From the NCBI RefSeq assembly GCF_016863435.1, contig NZ_BOOW01000007.1, positions 62,001-126,000 of the forward strand: 64,000 bases of DNA, in the 5' to 3' direction. The position numbers and the translations under genes were made by a program. The stretch comes from Sinosporangium siamense. Lineage in GTDB: Bacteria; Actinomycetota; Actinomycetes; Streptosporangiales; Streptosporangiaceae. Positions within the stretch are counted from its first letter, which is position 1. Each line of letters starts with the position of its first letter. The notes beneath the pieces were generated by a model. The model did no database searches and had not been told where the DNA came from. It was given only the letters and a program-made list of their open reading frames with translations. Shown one piece after another: positions 8,645 through 64,000 of the stretch.

Positions 8645-10470
<1,826 letters not shown>

Positions 10471-10476
10471 TGTTCG

Positions 10477-10510
10477 TGTACGGCGCGCGCTTCCAGGCGC
10501 GTGCCGTACA
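10477..10510 (+). other. Intercistronic stem-loop between guaB and guaB3
   Basis: Arms at 10477-10490 and 10497-10510 (TGTACGGCGCGCGC pairing with GCGCGTGCCGTACA, one G-U) enclose the loop TTCCAG. No T run follows. It may be a partial terminator or RNA-processing element lowering guaB3 relative to guaB. Confidence 0.65.
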
Positions 10511-12627: not shown

Positions 12628-13473
12628 ATGCCGATCCTGGTCGCCGGGGCCACGGGAACCGTGGGGGGCAGTCTTGTGCGGCAGTTGGTCGAGGCCGGGC
12701 ACGAGGTGCGGGCACTGACCAGAAATCCCGAGTCCGAGGCCGCAGCCGCTCTGCCCGCCGGGGTGGAGGTGGTCAAGGGGAGTTTTCTGGAGCCGCAGAG
12801 CCTCGTGCCCGCGTTGCGGGACGTCGAGCGCATGCATCTGGTCTCCATCGAAGGGTCCGCCGAGAACTGGGCGGAGATGCTGGAGCTCGCCAAGAAGGCG
12901 GGGGTGCGGCGGCTCACGCATCTCGGGCACAACGACGAGAGCAAGGACGACGACCATCCCCTGGAGGCGTGGCACCGTCAGGTGCACCGGGCCATCGAGG
13001 GGTCGGGGCTCGAATGGACGCACCTTTTTCCGGGCGAGTTCATGGCCAACACGTGGCAGTGGGCGGAGTCCATCAAGGGGAAGGGGGAGGTGCGTTCTCC
13101 GTTCGGGGACTGGAACTCCGCGCTGGTCCATGAGGCCGACATCGCCGCGGTCGCCATGGTGGCGCTGCTGGAGGACGGTCACGCGGGGAAGACCTATCAG
13201 CCGACCGGGCCCGAGCCAGTGCGGCGGCGTGATGCGGTGAGGATGATCGGGGAGGCGCTCGGCACCGAGATCCGGTTTGTCGAGCTGACGCCGGATCAGG
13301 CTCGCCGGGAGTGGGCCGACGTCTATCCGCCGGACATCATCGAGTGGTTCCTGGAGATGGGGACCGACTATGAGGGGGTGGGCTGGGTGTCACCCGACGT
13401 CGTGGAGGTGACGGGGCGCCCTGGGCGCACTTTCGCCCAGTGGACGAGGGAGCACGCCGGCGATTTCCGCTGA
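12628..13473 (+). CDS. NmrA/NAD(P)-binding Rossmann oxidoreductase
   Basis: The 281-residue atypical short-chain dehydrogenase starts with the dinucleotide motif ILVAGATGTVGG, followed by the LTRNPES loop typical of NmrA and quinone-oxidoreductase (QOR2) families that bind NADP(H). No signal peptide is present, so it is cytoplasmic. Family members reduce quinones or sense redox state; the substrate is unknown. The ATG at 12628 is chosen because GAGGGGG precedes it at good spacing and the dinucleotide motif begins there. It is a single gene, convergent with the NYN-FHA gene, with a 164-bp spacer that has no clear terminator. Confidence 0.85.
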   Translation: MPILVAGATGTVGGSLVRQLVEAGHEVRALTRNPESEAAAALPAGVEVVKGSFLEPQSLVPALRDVERMHLVSIEGSAENWAEMLELAKKAGVRRLTHLGHNDESKDDDHPLEAWHRQVHRAIEGSGLEWTHLFPGEFMANTWQWAESIKGKGEVRSPFGDWNSALVHEADIAAVAMVALLEDGHAGKTYQPTGPEPVRRRDAVRMIGEALGTEIRFVELTPDQARREWADVYPPDIIEWFLEMGTDYEGVGWVSPDVVEVTGRPGRTFAQWTREHAGDFR

Positions 13474-13637: not shown

Positions 13638-14801
13638 CTACCGCTTTCCCCGGCGGGGCTGTTTCGAGGGAATGAAGCGCCGGTTCTCCACCATCGTGGC
13701 CTGCCGGAGCGCAGGGGGGACGGGGTCGTGGACGCCGACCTCGTCGTCGGCGAAGGCGAATTCGCGGCCGCTCATGCTCAGGGTGACGAGGTCGTGGAGG
13801 AGCACTTCCTCGCCGTGGCGCAGGGGGCGGGCTTGCCGTGGGCGGAGTTTGATGATGTCGCCCCCGCGGCCTGCCTTGCGCACGCGGGTGCCGTTGGTGC
13901 TGAGGTCGCGGACGACGACGGCCACGGCCTCGCGGGAGATCTCGACGTGGCTGCGGCTCACCTTGTAGATCGCGGGGGTGCCCTCCAGCCAGCGGGCCAG
14001 GGCGACGCCGTTGTTGAGGGGGGCGCGGCCAACGGTGGTGCTTTCGCCGACGGCGAGGGTGAAACGGGCGACGACGTCGCCGTCCACTTTGACTTTGAGC
14101 TGGGTGCGGGCGGGACGGGGGCCGAGGTCGATCAAGGGCAGTTCGTGGGCGGGGCACCGTACGACGCCCCGGCGGTGGGTGGGGATGGCGTGGCCGGGGC
14201 CGAACATCGGGCAGTCCTGCTCGGGGCATTTCCACAGGCGATTCAACAGGTCCCGGCGGGGGCCGGCGTCGCGCCGGTCGTAGAGGCCCGCTTGAAGCAG
14301 GAGTGCTTCCTCTTCTTTCCTGGCGATTTCCCGCTCGGCGAGAACCCGGATAATTCTTCGCCTTATGGAGATGGTGCCGCCGTCGACCGAGTAAGGGCTG
14401 TAGAAGGCGTCGCGATTGCCGGACAGCCAGGGATAGGTGCGGTGGTAGTCCCCGAAGTTGTCGTCGCTGATCACCGGCAGGGACGACACGTTTCGCAGTT
14501 CCAGGACGCGGTCGTCGGCGGTCCGCAGCACTTCGATGAGACCGTTTTCGAACCACGAGGTCAGCATGGCGCGCTCGTCCGCGGTGAGGTTTCCGTCGCG
14601 CAGCACGGACCTGTCGCACACCGCGTAGATCTTGACGGTCTCGTCGCGGGTGAACTGCTTCAGCCCGTTGACCAGGGCGACGAGCCGCGAGAGGTCCGCG
14701 CGCCGCATCGTGAGCAGACCGTCATTTCGCACCACGTTCGCCATGTCCACAATGAAGTCGGCGCTATTGACGTCGAGAGTTAAATGCCGATCAATGCTCA
14801 T
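13638..14801 (-). CDS. NYN/PIN-like nuclease domain, zinc ribbon and FHA domain protein
   Basis: This is a 387-residue cytoplasmic protein in three parts. Residues 14-135 look like a NYN/Zc3h12a-type PIN RNase, with candidate metal-binding acids in IVDMANV (D19), VCDRSV (D63) and VISDDNFGDY (D113/D114). Residues 190-220 hold a Cys-rich patch (C192, C197, C216 and H219), probably a zinc ribbon. Residues 235-350 are an FHA phosphothreonine-binding domain with TVGR, SRSHVEI and DLSTNGT. The combination suggests an RNase controlled by, or targeted through, Ser/Thr phosphorylation. The nuclease assignment rests on motifs read by eye. A Ser/Thr kinase is encoded 9 kb away. Confidence 0.7.
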   Translation of the reverse strand: MSIDRHLTLDVNSADFIVDMANVVRNDGLLTMRRADLSRLVALVNGLKQFTRDETVKIYAVCDRSVLRDGNLTADERAMLTSWFENGLIEVLRTADDRVLELRNVSSLPVISDDNFGDYHRTYPWLSGNRDAFYSPYSVDGGTISIRRRIIRVLAEREIARKEEEALLLQAGLYDRRDAGPRRDLLNRLWKCPEQDCPMFGPGHAIPTHRRGVVRCPAHELPLIDLGPRPARTQLKVKVDGDVVARFTLAVGESTTVGRAPLNNGVALARWLEGTPAIYKVSRSHVEISREAVAVVVRDLSTNGTRVRKAGRGGDIIKLRPRQARPLRHGEEVLLHDLVTLSMSGREFAFADDEVGVHDPVPPALRQATMVENRRFIPSKQPRRGKR

Positions 14802-14915
14802 GTATGAATATTAGTAGGCGGTCAGTATGTGGGCAAGGTCACCGTTTTAAGTGCTTTGACAAGTGGTAGCCAAAAATAACCACATTACCCCAACGCCTTA
14901 AATATCGCGATAAGG

Positions 14916-16055
14916 TCAGGCAATGGGTTCCTTAACCCATGTGCCCTGCTTCATCACTCCAGCCACGGTCAGGTCCTCGTTCAGCACCACCAGGTCGGCG
15001 TCCTTCCCCACGGCGATCGAGCCGATCCGCCCGTCCTGGCCCAGCACCCGCGCCGGGGTGAGCGAGGCGACCACGGCGGCCTCGGAGATGGACAACCCGA
15101 CCTCCTGGACCGTGCGGCGGAACGCGACGTCCATCGTCAGCGTGCTCCCGGCGATGGATCCGCCCTCGGTCAGCCTGGCGACGCCGTTCTTCACGTCGAC
15201 GCCCATGTCGCCCAAGACGTAGCGCCCGTCGCCCATGCCGGCCGCCGCGATGGCGTCCGTGATGAGGGCGGTACGGCTCGTGCCCGCGGCCGTGATCGCC
15301 AGCCTCATCATGGCCGGGTGCACATGGACCCCGTCGTTGATCAGCTCGACGGTGACACGCTCGTCCTGGAGGAGAGCGGCGATCGGACCCGGATCGCGGT
15401 GGTGCAAAGGGGCCATGGCGTTGTAGAGATGGGTGGCGACCCTGGCGCCGGCGTCGACTCCGGCGAGCGTCTGCTCCAGGGTGGCGTCGGTGTGGCCGAG
15501 GGCGGCGATGACGCCTTCGCCGGTGAGGAAGGCGATGGCGTTGAGCGCGCCGGGGAGTTCCGGGGCGATGGTGAGCATGCGCACGTGGCCGCGACCGGCT
15601 TTGACGAGATCGCCGAGCTCGGCGGGGTCGGGGCTGCGGAGCTGGGCGGGGTCGTGGGCGCCGCAGCGGGCGGCGGAGATGTACGGTCCCTCGTAATGGA
15701 TGCCGGCCAGCAACCCCTCCTCGCAGAGCTCGGCCAGAGCCGACGCCGCCGAGGTGAGCTCCCTGGCGGGCCCGGTCACGAGGCTGGCCACGAGGGTCGT
15801 GGTGCCGTGGGCGGTGTGATAACCGACGGCTTTCCGGGCCTGTTCGAGGTCGCCGGTGGGGAAGGAGCCGCCCGCCCCGCCGTGGTTGTGGATGTCGACG
15901 AAACCGGGCACGATATGCCGCCCGGCCAGGCGGTATCCGTTCCCTGGAGCCGTGCCATGCCCGATGTGGGTGATCCGACCGTCCTCGATCGTGAGCCAGC
16001 CCTCGTGCACACCGTCGGTGGTCACTATGCGGGCGTCGGCGAGTGTGATGCTCAT
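14916..16055 (-). CDS. nagA: N-acetylglucosamine-6-phosphate deacetylase
   Basis: The 379-residue amidohydrolase-family enzyme converts GlcNAc-6-P to GlcN-6-P and acetate in amino-sugar catabolism and wall recycling. It has the metal motif VDIHNHGG, the HYEGPY segment with a metal-ligand Glu, GHTDA, and the catalytic Asp in LITDAIAAAG. Length is typical. It is transcribed divergently from glpD across 114 bp. No DasR-type site was recognised in that region. A palindrome (ATGGGTTCCTTAACCCAT, 14923-14940) spans its last codons. Confidence 0.95.
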   Translation of the reverse strand: MSITLADARIVTTDGVHEGWLTIEDGRITHIGHGTAPGNGYRLAGRHIVPGFVDIHNHGGAGGSFPTGDLEQARKAVGYHTAHGTTTLVASLVTGPARELTSAASALAELCEEGLLAGIHYEGPYISAARCGAHDPAQLRSPDPAELGDLVKAGRGHVRMLTIAPELPGALNAIAFLTGEGVIAALGHTDATLEQTLAGVDAGARVATHLYNAMAPLHHRDPGPIAALLQDERVTVELINDGVHVHPAMMRLAITAAGTSRTALITDAIAAAGMGDGRYVLGDMGVDVKNGVARLTEGGSIAGSTLTMDVAFRRTVQEVGLSISEAAVVASLTPARVLGQDGRIGSIAVGKDADLVVLNEDLTVAGVMKQGTWVKEPIA

Positions 16056-16169: not shown

Positions 16170-17888
16170 ATGACTGCCGGACTGGGCACCGCGGGGCTGG
16201 GCCCCGCCGATCGCGGCGACGCGCTGAGGTGGATGAGTTCGAACGAACTCGACGTCGTGGTGGTCGGGGGCGGGGTTGTCGGCGCCGGGGTCGCGTTGGA
16301 CGCGGCGACACGGGGGCTGAGCGTGGGGCTGGTCGAGGCGCGGGATTTCGCCTCGGGCACGTCGTCCCGCTCGTCCAAATTGATTCACGGTGGGGTTCGT
16401 TACCTGGAACAGTTGAACTTTGACCTGGTCAGGGAGGCGCTACAAGAGCGTGCGCTGCTCATGCAGCGGATCGCGCCCCATCTGGTGCGGCCGGTGCCGT
16501 TCCTCTTTCCACTCACCCATCTCGGCTGGGAGCGGCCCTATGTGGGGGCCGGGCTCGCTCTTTATGACTCCTTGGGATTTTCTTTTGGGTTCACCCGGGG
16601 GGTGCCGGTGCATCGGCACCTGTCCAGGACACGTGCGCTGAGGCTCGCGCCCGCGCTGCGCAGGAGCGCCTTCACCGGGGCCGTGCAGTACTGGGACGCC
16701 CAAGTGGACGACGCGCGCTATGTGATGACCATGCTACGCACCGCCGCGACCTACGGCGCGCGGATCGCCTCCCGCAACCGCGTGATGGGCTTCCTGCGGG
16801 AAGGGGAGCGGGTCACCGGTGTGCGGGCGCGGGACCTGGAGAGCGGCACCGAGATGGACATCCGCGCCCGTCAGGTGGTGAACGCCACAGGCGTGTGGAC
16901 CGACGACATCCAGGCGATGGTCGGCGGACGCGGGCAGATCCACGTGCGGGCCTCCAAAGGCATCCATCTGGTGGTGCCCCGCGACCGCATCCACTCGTTG
17001 ACCGGCATCATCCTCCGCACGGAGAAGTCGGTTTTGTTCGTCATCCCGTGGGGGCGGCACTGGATCGTCGGCACCACCGACACCGAGTGGACCCTCGACA
17101 AGGTCCACCCGGCCGCGTCCCGGGGCGACATCGACTATGTGCTCGACCACGTCAACGCCGTGTTGTCGGTCCCGCTGACCAGGGACGACGTCGAGGGTGT
17201 CTACGCGGGTCTGCGGCCGCTGCTCGCCGGGGAGTCCGACGAGACCTCCAAACTGTCGCGTGAGCACGTGGTCACCCACCCCGTGCCGGGCCTGGTGATG
17301 GTGGCCGGCGGGAAATACACGACCTATCGGGTGATGGCCCGTGACGCGGTGGACGCCGTGGCACACGGCCTCGACCAGCGTGTGCCGCCCTCGTGCACCG
17401 ACCGCATCCCGCTCGCCGGAGGCGAGGGCTACCAGGCGCTGTGGAACGCCCGGCATCGCCTGGCTCACTCCTCGGGGCTGCACGTGGCCCGGATCGAGCA
17501 CCTGCTCCGGAGATACGGCTCGCTGATCGACGAGGTGCTCCAGCTCATCGAGCAGGACCCCTCCCTCGGGCGTCCGCTCAGCGGCGCCGACGACTATCTC
17601 CGGGCCGAGATCGTCTACGCCGCCACACACGAGGGCGCACGTCACCTGAACGACGTGCTCACCCGGCGCACCCATATCTCCATCGAGACCTTCCACCGCG
17701 GTCTGGCCGTCGCCGCCGAGGCCGCCGAACTCATGGCCGGGCCGCTCGGCTGGGACGGTGAGCACATCAAACGCGAGGTGGAGTACTACACGAAGCGCAT
17801 CGAGGCCGAACGCCTGTCCCAGGAGCAGGACACCGACCAGGAGGCCGACGCCATCCGGCTGGGCGCACCGGAGATCGTCTCCTACTGA
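16170..17888 (+). CDS. glpD: Glycerol-3-phosphate dehydrogenase (FAD-dependent, GlpD)
   Basis: The 572-residue enzyme oxidises sn-glycerol-3-phosphate to dihydroxyacetone phosphate, passing electrons to quinone at the membrane. The FAD-binding fold starts with VVVVGGGVVGAGVALDAATR. It is followed by the family signature SSRSSKLIHGGVRYLE, then ATGVWTDD and the DAO C-terminal region with GGKYTTYR. The ATG is preceded by GGGGGAAG. No glpF or glpK is adjacent. It is convergent with the M36 protease gene, and a strong hairpin lies between them. Confidence 0.96.
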   Translation: MTAGLGTAGLGPADRGDALRWMSSNELDVVVVGGGVVGAGVALDAATRGLSVGLVEARDFASGTSSRSSKLIHGGVRYLEQLNFDLVREALQERALLMQRIAPHLVRPVPFLFPLTHLGWERPYVGAGLALYDSLGFSFGFTRGVPVHRHLSRTRALRLAPALRRSAFTGAVQYWDAQVDDARYVMTMLRTAATYGARIASRNRVMGFLREGERVTGVRARDLESGTEMDIRARQVVNATGVWTDDIQAMVGGRGQIHVRASKGIHLVVPRDRIHSLTGIILRTEKSVLFVIPWGRHWIVGTTDTEWTLDKVHPAASRGDIDYVLDHVNAVLSVPLTRDDVEGVYAGLRPLLAGESDETSKLSREHVVTHPVPGLVMVAGGKYTTYRVMARDAVDAVAHGLDQRVPPSCTDRIPLAGGEGYQALWNARHRLAHSSGLHVARIEHLLRRYGSLIDEVLQLIEQDPSLGRPLSGADDYLRAEIVYAATHEGARHLNDVLTRRTHISIETFHRGLAVAAEAAELMAGPLGWDGEHIKREVEYYTKRIEAERLSQEQDTDQEADAIRLGAPEIVSY

Positions 17889-17923
17889 CGGCCCGGGGGT
17901 GTACGGCGAAGCCCGGCAGGCGT

Positions 17924-17963
17924 TCTCCCCCGACGCAGCCCGCGGGCCTCGTCGGGGGAGAAC
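17924..17963. terminator. Bidirectional terminator hairpin between glpD and the protease gene
   Basis: Perfect 13-bp arms TTCTCCCCCGACG and CGTCGGGGGAGAA surround a 14-base loop that contains an inner palindrome GCCCGCGGGC. It serves the two convergent genes. The rest of 17889-18139 is GC-rich with nothing else recognised. Confidence 0.85.
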
Positions 17964-18139
17964 CCCGGGGAGGCCGGCACCGCGGGGCCGCCGTCCAGAC
18001 GGCCCGAGCGGCCCCGGGGCGTTCGCGGCGGCCTGTGCGGCCCGCTCCCGGCCGCGGAGAGAGCCCGCGGCCCGGAAGGCCGGGGCCCGCTCGATCGGCT
18101 GCGGGGAAGGCCACCGGGGCCCGGAAGGGCCCCGGTGGC

Positions 18140-21100
18140 TCAGTCGCCGAACGCCTGGAACTCGGCGGCCCGGACGTGGTTGCGGAACGCGCTCGCCGTG
18201 GCGCAGTCGGTGGCGGAGTTGGGGTCGTTGTCCTGTTCCCCGGCGTAGGCCGGAGCGCCGGTGCACTGGGACTGGACGACGCGCAGGGCCAGGTGGGTCG
18301 CGGTCGTCGGACGCACCTTGAACGACTTGGCGATCAGGTCGATGCTCCGCGGCCGCGGCACACGGGCGTCGAAGGCGTTGTCCGGGCTCGTGTAGACGAC
18401 GCTATACGATGCGGGGTCGGCGCAGTCGGCCCGCACCGAGTTGCAGGCGAGCACCTGGAAGGCGCGCAGCGCGCTGAAGCGGTTCTGCGGCCCGGGGTCG
18501 GCCGGGTCTGCCGCACCCGCGGCGGGCCTGAGCAGGGCGCTGACCTGCACTCGGTTGATCTTGACCGGTTCGGTCCCCGCGAGGTCCACGGTGACGGCCT
18601 TGCCGCTCACCGGGGCGGCGAGCGACGCCCAGTTGGTGGCCTCGGTGCCGTCGATGAGCTTGCCGTGGTTGACGCCGTCGCCCACGGCGGTGGCGCCCGC
18701 CGCGGCTGAGGCGTGGTCGCGCGGCAGCGTGACGTCTAGCGTCTCGCTCTCGCCCTTGTCGAAGGACTCGGTGAACCTCGTGTGGCCGAAGCCGGGACCG
18801 GTGGCGAGGAAATTGTGCTCGCCCGGCACGATTTGGAAGGTGTCGCCGAGCGGCGTGGCCGGGTCGGTGTCGGCCACGGGCACGCTGCGGGCCTCGTAGC
18901 TCCCGACGTACAGCTTGACCGGCGCGCCCGCCGCCGCGCCCTCGGGGGCGAGCTTCACGGTGGCGTTGCGGGCGTGCGGCGAGGCGAAGCCCGGCGTCGG
19001 GTTGGCGTCGTTGGAGCCGTTGCTGGCGGCGCCGAGGCCGAGGCCGCGGGCGGCGAAGGCGTTCCAGATGATGTCGTGGTTGCGCCCGCCGAAGCGTATG
19101 GCGTCGGCGGCGAGGATCGCGTCGCGGTGGTCGACGTAGGACACCGCCCCGCTGGTCATCAGCAGCAGCGCGTCGAAGGAGAGCTGCACCCAGCGGCGGT
19201 TGCCCGGGCACCGGTCGACCGGGCGTTCCCCGTCGGCGCAGGCGCGCTGCACGGCGGGCGTGGCGGCGCCGTACCTCTGCAGGAAGGCCTTGCGCACGTC
19301 GAACTGGGCCGCCGACCAGATCTCGCCGTCGGCGTGAACCTGCTGCCCTACCAGGTCGTAGGCGACGTTGCTGTAGTTCAGCGGCGACTTCGACATGTCG
19401 AAGTTGCGGATGCCGGCCTTGGCGTCGCCGGTGACGTAACCGCCCGTGACGTACGGCGTCTCGCCACGTGGGCGGAAGCCGTACTCGAAGAGGTGTTCCA
19501 TGGCGAACAGGTCGGATGTGCTCTCGTTCATCGCCCCGGCCTGGGCGCCCTGCCAGCCCGAGTTGGGGCCGCCGATCATACGGCCGGAGATGGCATGCGT
19601 GTATTCATGCCCGATGACCGACATGTCGTAGTCGCCGTCCACGCAGGGCCCGTAGAACGAGCCCGCCGACGGCTGCCACAAGTACATGTTGGTGATCGGC
19701 GCGACCCCGTCAGGACCGGTGATCTGGTTGGCGTTGTTGCGCACCGAAAGGTCGCGCGCGCCCGCCTGGGCGTTGCCCTGTTCGGGGTCGTTGCCGAGGC
19801 CGCCGCGGGTGCCGTTGTCCGCCTGCATGTTCCACGCCGTCTCGGTGAACCCGAGGCGGTAGGACCAGTCGTGGAGGCGATTGTGCATGGCGTGCAGGTT
19901 GGAGATCGCCGCCTCGAGGTCGGCCTCACCGGCCTGGTCGAACATGGCCGGGTCGCACTTGCCGGCGTTCCACATGTTGGACCACGGGTAGCGGTACTTC
20001 CGGTCGGAGACGTGGGTGTTCGTGCGGTTGCCGACGGTGTAGGGGTTGCCGCTGGCGCGGTTCTCATAGGTGCGGGCCGCGTTGCCGAGGCTGGTGCCGG
20101 TGCCGGCGTTGTCCGTGTGGTCGACGTCCCATTCCTTGCCGGTGGCCGGATCGGTCACCTTGACCTGGTCGCACCCCGGCTGGCGGCTGTCCAGACACCA
20201 CAGCCGGCGCGTGTCCCGCGACGAGTAGTCCGCCGGCGGGTTCGCGGGGAACACCTGCCACACCGGCCCTTCCGGGTCGCCGTGCGCCGAGGTGCCGTGC
20301 TCGTGGTCGAGGTAGTCGACGAGGTTCTCCCGCGTCAGCAACTCGCCGCTCACCGCGTCCACGTGCGAGGTGTACGCCGCGGGCTCGGCTGCCGTGCCCC
20401 CGACAAGTGTGACCTGGAAGGCGCTGCGCACCCCGTCGGGCGCGGGCACGGCCACCGTCTTGACCGTCTTGGTCGCGGCGGTGGCGAGGTCGACGCCGCC
20501 GTCGCGGGCGGCGATCTCCAGGGCCCGCTGCTCGGTGATGCGCGCGGCGGGCGGCGCCCCGGTCTCGCGCGACAACGTCGAGGTGACGTGAATGATCTTG
20601 CCGTCCACGACGCCGAGGGTCACCGTACCGTCGTGGCCTGCGGGCAGGTCGCCGAAGCGCTGGCGGAGCATGACGGCGTGGCCCTGGCCGATGGGGTTGA
20701 CCGCGACCTTCTCCAGGGCGTCCACAGCGGCGGCGGGCAGGCCGAAGAGCTGCTCGCTTGCCTTGAGGTAGGCGCGGGCCGCCGCCTCGGGGTCGGCCCC
20801 GAGGCCCTCGGCCAGAGGGGCCGCTCCCGTGATCACCGCGGGGGTGCCGAGGGCGTTCCACCGGATGGTCGTGTCGTCCGCCGTCCTCGCTTTGGCGAGC
20901 GCCGCGGCCGGCGGGGCCACCTTGCCCTTGCGGTTGTCGAGGTCGGGTTTGGCATGCTCCTCGCCCTGGAAGTCGAAGGGCTTGGGGGCGGCCCCGGGCT
21001 CACCGGCGGCGATCCCGGGGGTCGCGACGGCGAGGGGTAACGCGAGTGACGCCGCCGCAGCGGCGAGAGCAGATGCTTTTAACCAGGGTCGGGTGGACAC
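18140..21100 (-). CDS. Secreted M36 (fungalysin-type) zinc metalloprotease
   Basis: A 986-residue precursor with a clear Sec signal peptide (MSTRPWLKASALAAAAASLA). An FTP/PepSY-like propeptide covers about residues 60-300, and an M36 catalytic domain follows. HEYTH at residues 498-502 supplies the two His zinc ligands and catalytic Glu, and E526 in NESTSD is the third ligand. The last 250 residues are beta-rich, with a discoidin-like region from about residue 815 that may bind polymer or surface. It is an extracellular protease for protein degradation. It stands alone, convergent with glpD. Confidence 0.92.
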   Translation of the reverse strand: MSTRPWLKASALAAAAASLALPLAVATPGIAAGEPGAAPKPFDFQGEEHAKPDLDNRKGKVAPPAAALAKARTADDTTIRWNALGTPAVITGAAPLAEGLGADPEAAARAYLKASEQLFGLPAAAVDALEKVAVNPIGQGHAVMLRQRFGDLPAGHDGTVTLGVVDGKIIHVTSTLSRETGAPPAARITEQRALEIAARDGGVDLATAATKTVKTVAVPAPDGVRSAFQVTLVGGTAAEPAAYTSHVDAVSGELLTRENLVDYLDHEHGTSAHGDPEGPVWQVFPANPPADYSSRDTRRLWCLDSRQPGCDQVKVTDPATGKEWDVDHTDNAGTGTSLGNAARTYENRASGNPYTVGNRTNTHVSDRKYRYPWSNMWNAGKCDPAMFDQAGEADLEAAISNLHAMHNRLHDWSYRLGFTETAWNMQADNGTRGGLGNDPEQGNAQAGARDLSVRNNANQITGPDGVAPITNMYLWQPSAGSFYGPCVDGDYDMSVIGHEYTHAISGRMIGGPNSGWQGAQAGAMNESTSDLFAMEHLFEYGFRPRGETPYVTGGYVTGDAKAGIRNFDMSKSPLNYSNVAYDLVGQQVHADGEIWSAAQFDVRKAFLQRYGAATPAVQRACADGERPVDRCPGNRRWVQLSFDALLLMTSGAVSYVDHRDAILAADAIRFGGRNHDIIWNAFAARGLGLGAASNGSNDANPTPGFASPHARNATVKLAPEGAAAGAPVKLYVGSYEARSVPVADTDPATPLGDTFQIVPGEHNFLATGPGFGHTRFTESFDKGESETLDVTLPRDHASAAAGATAVGDGVNHGKLIDGTEATNWASLAAPVSGKAVTVDLAGTEPVKINRVQVSALLRPAAGAADPADPGPQNRFSALRAFQVLACNSVRADCADPASYSVVYTSPDNAFDARVPRPRSIDLIAKSFKVRPTTATHLALRVVQSQCTGAPAYAGEQDNDPNSATDCATASAFRNHVRAAEFQAFGD

Positions 21101-61485: not shown

Positions 61486-62424
61486 TCAGCCGATGGAGTT
61501 GGTCGACATGTCCCAGGGCTTGAGGTTGCCAAGGCCCTCGGTGTCGAGGTCGGCGAGCTCGACCACCTGGTCGGCCGGGGGTGCCGTCACCTTGACGCCC
61601 TTCGCCCATCCGGTCAGGTTGGTGGTCTGGCTGAGCGTCGTCGTGACCGCGGTGTCGCCCTTACCCTGCTTCTGAGCGATCGTGGTGGTTACGCGACGGG
61701 GCAGCTGGTCCGCGCCGATCCAGATCTTGATGGTGACCGGGATCTTCGCCTGAGCAGGGGTGAGCTGGGGGAAGGCCTGCTTGATGTCCGAGACCTGCCG
61801 TAGTTTGCCCAGCGTGATGCTCCCCTGGAGGAGGGTGGTCTTCACACCGTCGAGCGTGCCGCCAGGCGACTTCTTCGTGGCGACGGCCTGCACGGCGTTG
61901 TACGTCTTCAGGTTGAAGACGTTGACCAGCGAGCCGTTGGTGACCGGAAGCGGAGCGGGCAGCTTGGTGTGCACCCACTTCTTGCCCTCGGGCAGCTTGT
62001 CCGCGTAGTACGCGCCGCTGTAGTAGAGCGACGTGCCGACGGCGACGGTGCGGGAGGGCTTGAGAAGCTTCTCGATCTGAGCCGCGTCGGTCTTGAATTC
62101 CTTCTTGAACTCCGCGGTCAGCGCCTGCTTGAACACCGGGGAGAGTGTCCAGCGCCGCTTGAGGTCGTGGGAGTTGACCTTGCCGGCACCGAAGGCCAGC
62201 GTGCCGTTGGCCGTCGTGCTGAATCCGGCCTTGTAGCCTCCGGCGTTCACCGACGTGTTGAGGCGGTCGGTGATCTTGACCCCGTTGCCCGGCACCACGA
62301 ACGCCTTCAGCGCGGCACTGGGAGTCTTGGGGGCGGCCTGGGCGCTCTTGGCGCTTGCCGGGGCTGCCGCGGCGATCGCGGGGAGAGCGACGGCCACGGC
62401 GGCCATGGCGATCCAACGCTTCAT
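61486..62424 (-). CDS. Secreted LppX/LprG-like protein, copy 1
   Basis: The 312-residue exported protein has a signal peptide (MKRWIAMAAVAVALPAIAAA) without a lipobox Cys. The mature part has the LppX/LprAFG-type (LolA-like half-barrel) pattern, with the conserved segment PVTIKIWIGADQLPRRVTTT before the end. This fold carries lipids across the envelope in mycobacteria. ATG 62424 is chosen because it begins the signal peptide and has GAAGGAAG upstream; the frame is open to 62469. It is the last of three tandem paralogues on this strand. Confidence 0.8.
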   Translation of the reverse strand: MKRWIAMAAVAVALPAIAAAAPASAKSAQAAPKTPSAALKAFVVPGNGVKITDRLNTSVNAGGYKAGFSTTANGTLAFGAGKVNSHDLKRRWTLSPVFKQALTAEFKKEFKTDAAQIEKLLKPSRTVAVGTSLYYSGAYYADKLPEGKKWVHTKLPAPLPVTNGSLVNVFNLKTYNAVQAVATKKSPGGTLDGVKTTLLQGSITLGKLRQVSDIKQAFPQLTPAQAKIPVTIKIWIGADQLPRRVTTTIAQKQGKGDTAVTTTLSQTTNLTGWAKGVKVTAPPADQVVELADLDTEGLGNLKPWDMSTNSIG

Positions 62425-62485
62425 GAGAGGGGGACTTCCTTCTGAAATGCCTCGCTGTGGCGAAGGCATGAGGGATGGTTGCCGG

Positions 62486-63436
62486 TTAGGAGAGCACCCG
62501 CTTGGGGTCGAGGCGGAGTGCGTCGTCCAGGAGGCCGGGGAACAGCGGCTGCGGCAGGTCCTCAGCGCTGATCACCAGCGACGGGTCGGGAGCCGTGATG
62601 TTCACGGGCTTACCCCACGCGGTGAGATCCGTGATGCTGTTCTGCGTCAGCGTCGCCCGCCCGATCTTCATCGAGAGGCTGACCTGAGCGCGGCGGGGGA
62701 GCTGGTCGGAGCCGAGCCAGATCTTGATGGTGACGGGCGACTTCGCCTCCTTGCCCTTGGGCACGTAGACCGGCTTGCCCCCCTTCGAGGCTTCGGCCTT
62801 GGCGAGCTCGCCCATGGTGGTCTTGATGCCGTAGACGGTGGTCTTGACGCCGTCGTACGTGCCGCCCGGCTTCTTGGTGCCCTTGCTCGTCAGGAGGTTC
62901 CACATGCCGTTCAGCGAGGCGGGGTCCACGGCGTTGGGGTTGGTGTCGAGCGGCCAGACGGCCTGGCCCTTGGTCGGCGAGCTCACCCACGTCTTGCCGG
63001 TGGGGAGATACTGCGCGAAGAACTCGCTGTTCACGTAGTTCACGTTGCCGACGGAGATCACGTGGACGGGCTCAAGCGCGAGCTGCGCCAGCTCCTCGTC
63101 CGCCTTCTTGATCTCCTCGCGCACCTCCGGCGCGACGACCATGCGGGACTTCAGGTCCAGCGCGGTCACCTTGCCGCCGCCGAACCCCAGGACACCCGAG
63201 GTCACCTGTCCCGGCGCCTTGAAGTCGGACAGCCGCTTGTCGCCCTTGACGGTCAGCCGGCTGCGCTGGTTGATCGCGACGCCGCCGGTGCCGCTGAGCA
63301 CCCGCTTGACGGCGTCGCCGGGGGTGAGCGCCGCCGACCCGGACTTCTGCGGGGCGGCGGTAGCCGTGCCGGCACCGGCCGCGACCAGGGCGGGGGCCGC
63401 GAGTACGGCGGCGGCAAGGGTGGTCCATCGCTTCAT
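62486..63436 (-). CDS. Secreted LppX/LprG-like protein, copy 2
   Basis: The 316-residue paralogue of its neighbours has a signal peptide (MKRWTTLAAAVLAAPALVAA). The same C-terminal pattern appears in SPVTIKIWLGSDQLPRRAQ and ITAPDPSLVISAEDL. AGGAGG precedes the ATG at good spacing. There is no lipobox, so it is secreted or loosely surface-bound. It is separated from copy 1 by 61 bp and from copy 3 by 95 bp, consistent with one operon. Confidence 0.82.
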   Translation of the reverse strand: MKRWTTLAAAVLAAPALVAAGAGTATAAPQKSGSAALTPGDAVKRVLSGTGGVAINQRSRLTVKGDKRLSDFKAPGQVTSGVLGFGGGKVTALDLKSRMVVAPEVREEIKKADEELAQLALEPVHVISVGNVNYVNSEFFAQYLPTGKTWVSSPTKGQAVWPLDTNPNAVDPASLNGMWNLLTSKGTKKPGGTYDGVKTTVYGIKTTMGELAKAEASKGGKPVYVPKGKEAKSPVTIKIWLGSDQLPRRAQVSLSMKIGRATLTQNSITDLTAWGKPVNITAPDPSLVISAEDLPQPLFPGLLDDALRLDPKRVLS

Positions 63437-63531
63437 GAGATTGGCCTCCTGGAAGTGCCTCGCTGCGGGTGAGGCTCCATTGCTTGTGGAAGAAGTTCGC
63501 GGTGCTTGCGCACGATGCCTACCGGCGCCGC

Positions 63532-64000
63532 TCAGGGGATGCGCTGGAGGTCGGCCTTACGGGGTGGGTCCGAGTCGAGCGGCGGATCGACGAGGAGGCT
63601 GAACGGAGAGGAGAGGTGCTCGGGCAACGTGATCTCGTCTCTCCGGACGACGAGTGAGGGGTCGGGAGCCGTGACCGTCGCGGGGCCGCCCCATCGGGTG
63701 TAGGCCGTGGTGGTCTTGGTCGACTCTTCCTCCTCGGCGACGCTCACCTGGCTGCGGCGCGGAAGCTGGTCGGGGCCGAGCCAGACCTTGACGGTCGCGG
63801 GCCGGCGCAACACCCTGGGCGTGGCCTGGCCGGTCTGCCGGAGGTTCTCCAGAAGCGGCGGAGAGATCTTGCTCAGGGCGCCGACGGTCGTCTTCACCCG
63901 GTAGAGAGTCGTCCTCGTGCCGTTTTCGAACACGGCGCCGGGGCTCTTCTTGCCGCCGAGCCTCATCACACCGTCGAGCGTGATCGGGTCCAGCACGTCG
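63532..64000 (-). CDS. LppX/LprG-like protein, copy 3 (N-terminus beyond window)
   Basis: This is the C-terminal part of a third paralogue. It runs off the end of the window, so the apparent ATG at 63996 is internal. It has TVKVWLGPDQLPRRSQVSV and VTAPDPSLVVRRDEI, matching the last 150 residues of copies 1 and 2. It is the upstream member of the tandem array. Confidence 0.85.
   Translation of the reverse strand, partial: DVLDPITLDGVMRLGGKKSPGAVFENGTRTTLYRVKTTVGALSKISPPLLENLRQTGQATPRVLRRPATVKVWLGPDQLPRRSQVSVAEEEESTKTTTAYTRWGGPATVTAPDPSLVVRRDEITLPEHLSSPFSLLVDPPLDSDPPRKADLQRIP

Follow-up and report, generated by a model that had tools for sequence, protein, structure and literature searches.

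A putative NYN nuclease–FHA protein family linked to Ser/Thr kinase genes in Actinobacteria

The gene at 13638..14801 and its three-part product

The window, by which we mean the whole 64,000-nucleotide stretch of Sinosporangium siamense DNA analyzed here (C7:62001-126000 of an 8.86-Mb genome), carries on its minus strand, at 13638..14801, a gene for a protein made of an NYN/PIN-like domain, a putative zinc-binding stretch, and an FHA domain. It starts with ATG and encodes 387 amino acids. The coding-potential caller kept this ORF. An earlier note, made from the letters alone, had placed the ORF exactly and had proposed the same three-part architecture, which is confirmed by structure comparison, profiles, and residue conservation. 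The gene is flanked by what we take, from recognition of their sequences, to be a NagA-like gene (14916-16055, minus strand) and an NmrA-like gene (12628-13473, plus strand). Profile searches of the 8.86-Mb genome found one NYN member, and a B-type profile retrieved the same gene only. With a G+C content of 67.0% against 69.1% for the window, the gene bears no compositional sign of recent foreign origin. At the right end of the window, three tandem paralogous genes form one cluster (61486-63996).

The NYN/PIN-like nuclease domain occupies residues about 9-150 (14352..14777, minus strand). The structure prediction that the earlier note had proposed as a check, an AF2 model built from 17 sequences with a mean pLDDT of 85.5, contains an NYN/PIN-like fold. 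In VIA-align comparisons, residues 9-149 of the model align with the metallonuclease domain of PRORP2 (5ft9; Z 12.4, 3.5 Å, 137 residues), residues 12-150 with ZC3H12A (3v34; Z 11.2, 131 residues), and residues 13-150 with ZC3H12C (Z 11.3). PRORP2 is also the best PDB match of a family profile restricted to the NYN part (E 0.009); the weaker matches after it are a VapC toxin, KHNYN, several unrelated chains, and ZC3H12A/C. The NYN parts of 12 of 30 relatives match RNase_Zc3h12a, with E values up to 1 and a best value of 8e-6. The N-terminus of the window protein itself has no NYN or PIN match in Pfam and none in NCBIfam or PADLOC, and the B proteins of loci L040 and L056 score 20.4 and 18.0 against a Pfam NYN/PIN cut-off of 23. 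The assignment is thus based on the structure comparison, the PRORP2 profile match, and the RNase_Zc3h12a matches of relatives. A PDB search with the single window sequence returned only nucleosidases near E 1; this identity was discarded as chance.

Residue conservation was counted over 52 full-length members, which are also those of the tree. Several loci were set aside before this count: L067 (truncated) and L149 (interrupted), both with a kinase; L111 and L112, which are divergent with broken acidic residues and have no adjacent kinase, one lying about 6 kb away; L113, where only the paralogue type is present; L115-L117, which are fragments or have no called gene; L143, a duplicate of L062; and the fragments L162-L164, which lack a kinase in their 19.5-kb stretches. 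Position 19 is D in 47 of the 52 members and E in the other five, all from Streptomyces; N22 is kept in 48, two members having P22; and R39 is invariant (52/52). D63 and D96 are each found in 50 members and D114 in 51. The window protein has all four acidic residues together with the D-x-S/A-N motif. The earlier note had proposed an acidic pocket of D19, D63, D113, and D114. Three of these residues are indeed conserved, but D113 varies, and the fourth conserved acid is D96, absent from its list. In the profile alignment, D19, D96, and D114 fall on PRORP2 aspartates; D63 has no acidic counterpart in PRORP2 in the printed alignment. The N-terminus is therefore predicted to adopt an NYN metallonuclease fold, whose substrate would presumably be RNA.

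The putative zinc-binding stretch (residues 190-219; 14145..14234, minus strand) reads W-x-C-x4-C ... C-x2-H, with C192, C197, C216, and H219 as conserved candidate ligands. W190 and the three cysteines are identical in all 52 members, and the fourth ligand position holds H in 40 members and C in the other 12. A 75-residue model of the stretch alone (pLDDT 79.8) matched no known fold in a fold search. The four Cys/His ligands thus bear out part of the previously suggested zinc ribbon, but the name ribbon rests on the sequence.

The FHA domain (residues 229-350; 13752..14117, minus strand) is the only domain that Pfam recognizes in the window protein (24.6 bits against a cut-off of 20.7), and VIA-align places the same residues on known FHA domains, the highest Z being 13.3. 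Its full core is present: G258-R259, the S-R-x-H motif formed by S282, R283, and H285, and N303-G304. The first five of these residues (G258, R259, S282, R283, and H285) are found in 52/52 members. The FHA asparagine N303 is found in only 28, a tyrosine taking its place in 17. A low-confidence C-terminal tail follows (13641..13751, minus strand; pLDDT under 50 for residues 347-384), in which T369 is a possible phospho-acceptor, offered as a lead only. A GarA-like switch in this tail was not confirmed: with the motif fixed in advance, 7 of 17 new tails carried it against 4.0 in shuffled sequences (p 0.058). The same tail-threonine motif had been seen in 16 of 34 members of the original set, on which it was chosen and from which L047 was excluded (expected 7.0, p 0.0004). 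Post hoc, a threonine lies within the last eight residues of 13 of the 17 tails, against 8.5 (p 0.017). Among 35 members, L047 alone has a printed tail devoid of threonine.

Distribution and genomic context of the family

The family is patchily distributed. Relatives, which show 23-46% identity in the family alignment, occur in 23 of the 345 genomes examined from the order, among them that of the window, and in 22 of 392 genomes of a single genus known as a carrier, which we judge to be Streptomyces. In the class sample, at least 14 of 394 genomes, again including the window's own, have a relative at E 1e-20 or better among the matches listed. The raw tally of 309/394 was rejected as a family count, most of the listed matches covering the FHA part only. 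The phylum sample gave two of 396 genomes, one of them the window's own. Named carriers are Microbispora, Acrocarpospora, Actinomadura, Nocardiopsis, Streptomyces, Kitasatospora, and Trebonia. Single-protein searches of genome contigs, plasmids, and phages detected no distant relatives, and a profile search of viral contigs detected no relative.

According to the gene-neighbor survey of homologues, which the earlier note had also suggested, a Ser/Thr kinase gene accompanies 42 of the 52 members, adjacent to the family gene in 29 and within the same multi-gene locus in 13. These are manual labels reflecting our own reading of the neighborhoods. Over the 52 rows of the tree they distribute as adjacent kinase (29), system II (8), system III (5), and none (10). 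L057, whose kinase is apparently frameshifted, and L058, where only a kinase tail remains at the contig end, were both labelled kinase-adjacent. Some kinase and family genes overlap by 4 bp; in L050, L103, L107, L144-L148, and L156 the kinase lies on the opposite strand. Of 38 loci supplied, 37 have a called family gene; in these, kinases make up 20 of 82 called genes directly beside the family gene, 13 of 309 genes located two to six genes away, and one of 147 at seven or more, a count that includes the B paralogues, whose system II neighbor is also a kinase. In a later sample of one genus, a kinase-profile match was found beside or in the locus of all 17 full-length copies. As background, the genome of the window has 44 Pkinase matches in 8.86 Mb. 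The context labels require 12 changes on the tree against a mean of 21.2 after shuffling, which indicates that contexts are clustered yet repeatedly exchanged.

The partner kinases carry diverse putative sensors. WD40 propellers are found in those of L104, L105, and L110, and Sel1 repeats with sub-threshold TPR matches in that of L066. By eye, the L057 kinase has a hydrophobic membrane-like segment and a long tail, and TPR-like kinase tails are common to the clade of the window protein. One constant nuclease-FHA output combined with several kinase sensors is the main new finding of this analysis.

The linkage has exceptions in both directions. Eight of the ten members without a kinase label, including the window protein, keep all four acids, so that the coupling of nuclease and kinase is not absolute. 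Conversely, L149 (interrupted) and L067 (truncated) have an adjacent kinase, which therefore does not guarantee an intact nuclease.

Two larger arrangements were distinguished. In system II (L039, L040, L042, L045, L046, L151, L153, and L159; L113 has the B-type gene only), the family gene is divergent from an operon encoding a PP2C, a vWA protein, a second NYN-FHA protein, a kinase, and a very large protein. The PP2C-type (SpoIIE) and vWA domains of L042 score above the Pfam cut-offs and an S1 match below; the kinase is below the cut-off in L042 and above it in L040. In system III (L048, L052, L054, L160, and L161), the family gene is accompanied by two proteins that Pfam does not clearly match, one vWA protein, and one that is kinase-like. 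The Pfam scan in system III covered the L048 proteins and the L160 kinase, which scores 28.6 bits against a cut-off of 31.7. In L151, L153, and L159-L161, the system labels rely on gene order combined with profile scores or likeness by eye and not on Pfam, the L160 kinase excepted. Pfam gave no GAP1-N2 match for the scanned proteins of systems II and III and does not support assigning these systems to GAP1-N2 or VMAP. TerY models, which we assume the PADLOC library to hold, were not among the matches shown at E 0.01 for the system II vWA, PP2C-type, and kinase proteins.

Several features of these loci are recorded in their own right. The 1753-aa protein that ends the system II operon of L113 (1793-7051, minus strand) has no Pfam match, and its L042 homologue has the sub-threshold S1 match. 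In L048 (6582-9289), with homologues in L052 and L054, conserved proteins of 473 and 429 aa, the second Cys-rich, are encoded next to the vWA and kinase genes; neither has a clear Pfam match. In Actinomadura formosensis, about 1.5 kb separates the system II locus (L045, 13516-19500) from the cas3e and cas8e genes of a type I-E CRISPR-Cas system. In L152, L157, and L158, the NYN-FHA gene is divergent from rpsL and rpsG, and in L152 and L157 also from fusA (gene names that we presume by recognition), with the kinase on its other side. Beyond this kinase lies a convergent pair encoding a small protein, with a Pfam FHA domain in L157, and a larger kinase.

The window copy and decayed relatives

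The window protein belongs to a clade of seven members (support 100/100). The other six all have an adjacent kinase; the window copy alone has none, the nearest kinase gene being 8.7 kb away. Searched against the window genome, the partner kinase of L037 gave generic matches only (best identity 37%, none extending past residue 373 of 471). The link between Ser/Thr kinases and this nuclease that the earlier note had suggested is thus found in the gene neighborhoods of relatives but not in that of the window copy. The end branch of the window protein measures 0.56 and is shorter than those of four of its six clade mates.

The start region is also shared within the clade. Six bases before the ATG lies a candidate −10 element of leaderless type, TAATAT (14808..14813, minus strand), separated by a 17-base spacer from TTGCCC (14831-14836, minus strand). 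A strict sigma-70 promoter scan gave no match. The pattern TAnnnT is located 5-8 bases before the start codon in all seven clade members and in 13 of the 52 family members, against a mean of 1.15 and a maximum of 6 in 2000 shuffles. It had been noticed in seven of these thirteen before counting, the additional ones being L036, L038, L042, L152, L157, and L158. A loose Shine-Dalgarno-like pattern occurs in 31 of the 52 members, L037 and L042 included. The start arrangement of the clade may accordingly be read as leaderless-type, with TAATAT as a candidate element.

Decay of the nuclease domain was seen in four full-length copies with broken acids (L047, L106, L111, and L112), none of which has an adjacent kinase. 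L047, sister to the kinase-linked L041 (support 100/100), has lost the kinase as well as N22, D63, and D96. The L106 contig is only 5.5 kb long, so that a kinase may lie beyond its end. Both L047 and L106 retain the FHA core. L111 (G525, about 9340-10491) and L112 (G434, about 9039-10190) have lost N22, D63, D96, and D114, and may be FHA adaptors whose nuclease domain is dead.

Proposed function and relation to known systems

We propose that the protein is a phospho-reading ribonuclease combining an NYN metallonuclease, a zinc stretch, and an FHA domain, and operating in most relatives within a sensor-kinase signalling cassette; we assign this reading a probability of about 0.6. A sensor Ser/Thr kinase, with membrane-like, WD40, or Sel1/TPR-like parts, would phosphorylate itself or a partner. 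The FHA domain would bind the resulting phosphothreonine or a threonine in the NYN-FHA protein's own tail, and this docking would recruit, switch on, or release the nuclease, which would then cut RNA. Control would thus pass from kinase to nuclease. In the window organism, the cassette kinase is absent from the neighborhood, so that the gene would either have to answer to one of the other kinases of the genome or be an orphan. More tentatively, and with the odds somewhat against it, the family may be viewed as a bacterial "split Ire1", in which interchangeable sensor kinases (membrane, WD40, TPR/Sel1) would connect diverse stress or infection signals to RNA cleavage by one constant phospho-gated NYN ribonuclease through a phosphothreonine-FHA handshake. 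On this view, the larger loci with PP2C and vWA genes, some of which have two NYN-FHA nucleases, would be forms that can be regulated and reset.

The same gene sets might instead serve abortive anti-phage defence, the kinase sensing infection, the NYN-FHA protein degrading host or phage RNA, and systems II and III being larger versions. The sporadic distribution (23/345 in the order, 22/392 in one genus), the type I-E cas genes beside system II in L045, and, on the G065 system II contig, the type I methyltransferase gene and that of a DEAD helicase bearing an MrfA zinc domain would fit such a role, and the PP2C-vWA-kinase sets resemble the TerY-P defence triad. However, the window protein has no PADLOC match. 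In a defence-gene scan covering two neighborhoods (one PP2C, two vWA, two kinases, and one large protein), PADLOC returned nothing for the vWA and large proteins and one weak model for the PP2C; the kinases matched mainly PD-T4-6, mad6, and MkoA, which could be expected of any kinase. Relatives were also not found in phages and plasmids (single-sequence searches) or in viral contigs, and some copies adjoin rpsL-rpsG-fusA. We therefore regard defence as doubtful. Much less credible is a housekeeping activity such as PRORP-like trimming of tRNA or rRNA, the FHA domain only localizing the enzyme. Although the PRORP metallonuclease is the best NYN match by both structure and profile, a family whose frequency is about 4-7% in three genome samples and 2/396 in the phylum sample does not perform a core function, and this explanation leaves the kinase linkage unaccounted for.

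Some proteins with a PIN-like fold cut DNA and others are inactive, and L047 and L106 keep an FHA core without intact acids, so that the domain might be a DNA-cutting enzyme or a non-catalytic scaffold. We hold this to be improbable, since 50 of the 52 members have the four acids (E instead of D at position 19 in five) and the closest matches are RNA nucleases. A further explanation, which concerns the window copy only, is that it no longer functions and is left over from a kinase-nuclease cassette. It lacks the kinase of its six clade mates, and the broken Streptomyces fragments L162-L164 likewise have none in their 19.5-kb stretches. The ORF is full-length, though, with all conserved NYN, zinc, and FHA residues retained, its end branch is shorter than those of four of six clade mates, and the clade-wide start-proximal TAnnnT is still present. 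These observations make a remnant unlikely.

A phospho-reading ribonuclease would share parts with several known proteins. PRORP has the same fold (Z 12.4) and a similar placement of D19, D96, and D114 but, in the printed profile alignment, no acidic counterpart of D63; to our knowledge, it carries PPR repeats and no FHA domain. Regnase-1/ZC3H12A-C and KHNYN share the NYN fold (Z 11.2-11.3 for ZC3H12A/C) and the D-x-S/A-N start motif. As far as we know, they have a eukaryotic-type CCCH finger, different partners, and no FHA domain. GarA and OdhI are, like the window protein, actinobacterial FHA proteins, and their FHA domains match in the structure comparison. Both are controlled by Ser/Thr kinases; GarA, whose phospho-switch lies at its N-terminus, is not known to carry a nuclease.

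The earlier note knew of no named system with this architecture. This holds for part of it only: joining an FHA domain to a PIN-type nuclease has been published for the plant proteins AtPS1 and PSL and for bacterial vWA components, but the zinc stretch and the pairing with a kinase gene appear in neither in the text available from these sources. AtPS1, a 1477-aa protein for which a role in RNA decay was suggested, has its FHA domain first and its PINc domain last, the latter being nearest to SMG6/Swt1, and the 2008 paper, in its accessible part, reports no close FHA-PINc homologues outside plants (PMC2581889). The PSL proteins likewise combine FHA and PINc (PMC3071787, as far as its available text goes). 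Compared with this plant order, that of the window protein is reversed, NYN coming first and FHA last, and its structural matches are of the PRORP/NYN and not the SMG6/Swt1 type. In bacteria, Kaur et al. (2020) describe, in the sections at hand, vWA components of VMAP ternary conflict systems that join an RNase PIN domain and an FHA domain (PMC7159879). The window protein similarly has both in one polypeptide; theirs come with a vWA domain in MoxR-VMAP systems, whereas Pfam finds no vWA in the window protein. An actinobacterial GAP1-N2 theme with kinase, PP2C, and vWA genes, outlined in the same sections, resembles the trio of system II, but that account, in the same part, does not include an NYN-FHA protein (PMC7159879). 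PIN and FHA domains appear in separate contexts in the available text of PMC8195603, and PrsW fusions in that of PMC3482391.

In the literature searched, from which most subscription journals fall outside so that absence from print is not established, we found no description of an NYN-zinc-FHA protein paired with a kinase. The combination of FHA with a PIN-type nuclease was already known; we have not met in print an NYN-zinc-FHA protein with interchangeable kinases. Actinobacteria possess dozens of Ser/Thr kinases with few defined outputs beyond metabolism and the cell wall. A conserved phospho-reader carrying its own nuclease would constitute a direct kinase-to-RNA output, and the family suggests a little-known route from signal to RNA cleavage in bacteria. 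Bacteria would thereby have an equivalent of plant AtPS1, for which an FHA-nuclease logic has been proposed in the part of that work available.

A different NYN fusion was observed on the G065 contig C57, which also carries one system II locus. In L114 (8069-10078, minus strand), a 670-aa protein fuses HSP70 (195.5 bits) to an RNase_Zc3h12a-type NYN domain (35.1 bits), both above the Pfam cut-offs. Its gene adjoins that of a DEAD helicase of 1538 aa that includes an MrfA zinc domain, and the type I methyltransferase of the same stretch is located at 16231-18174.
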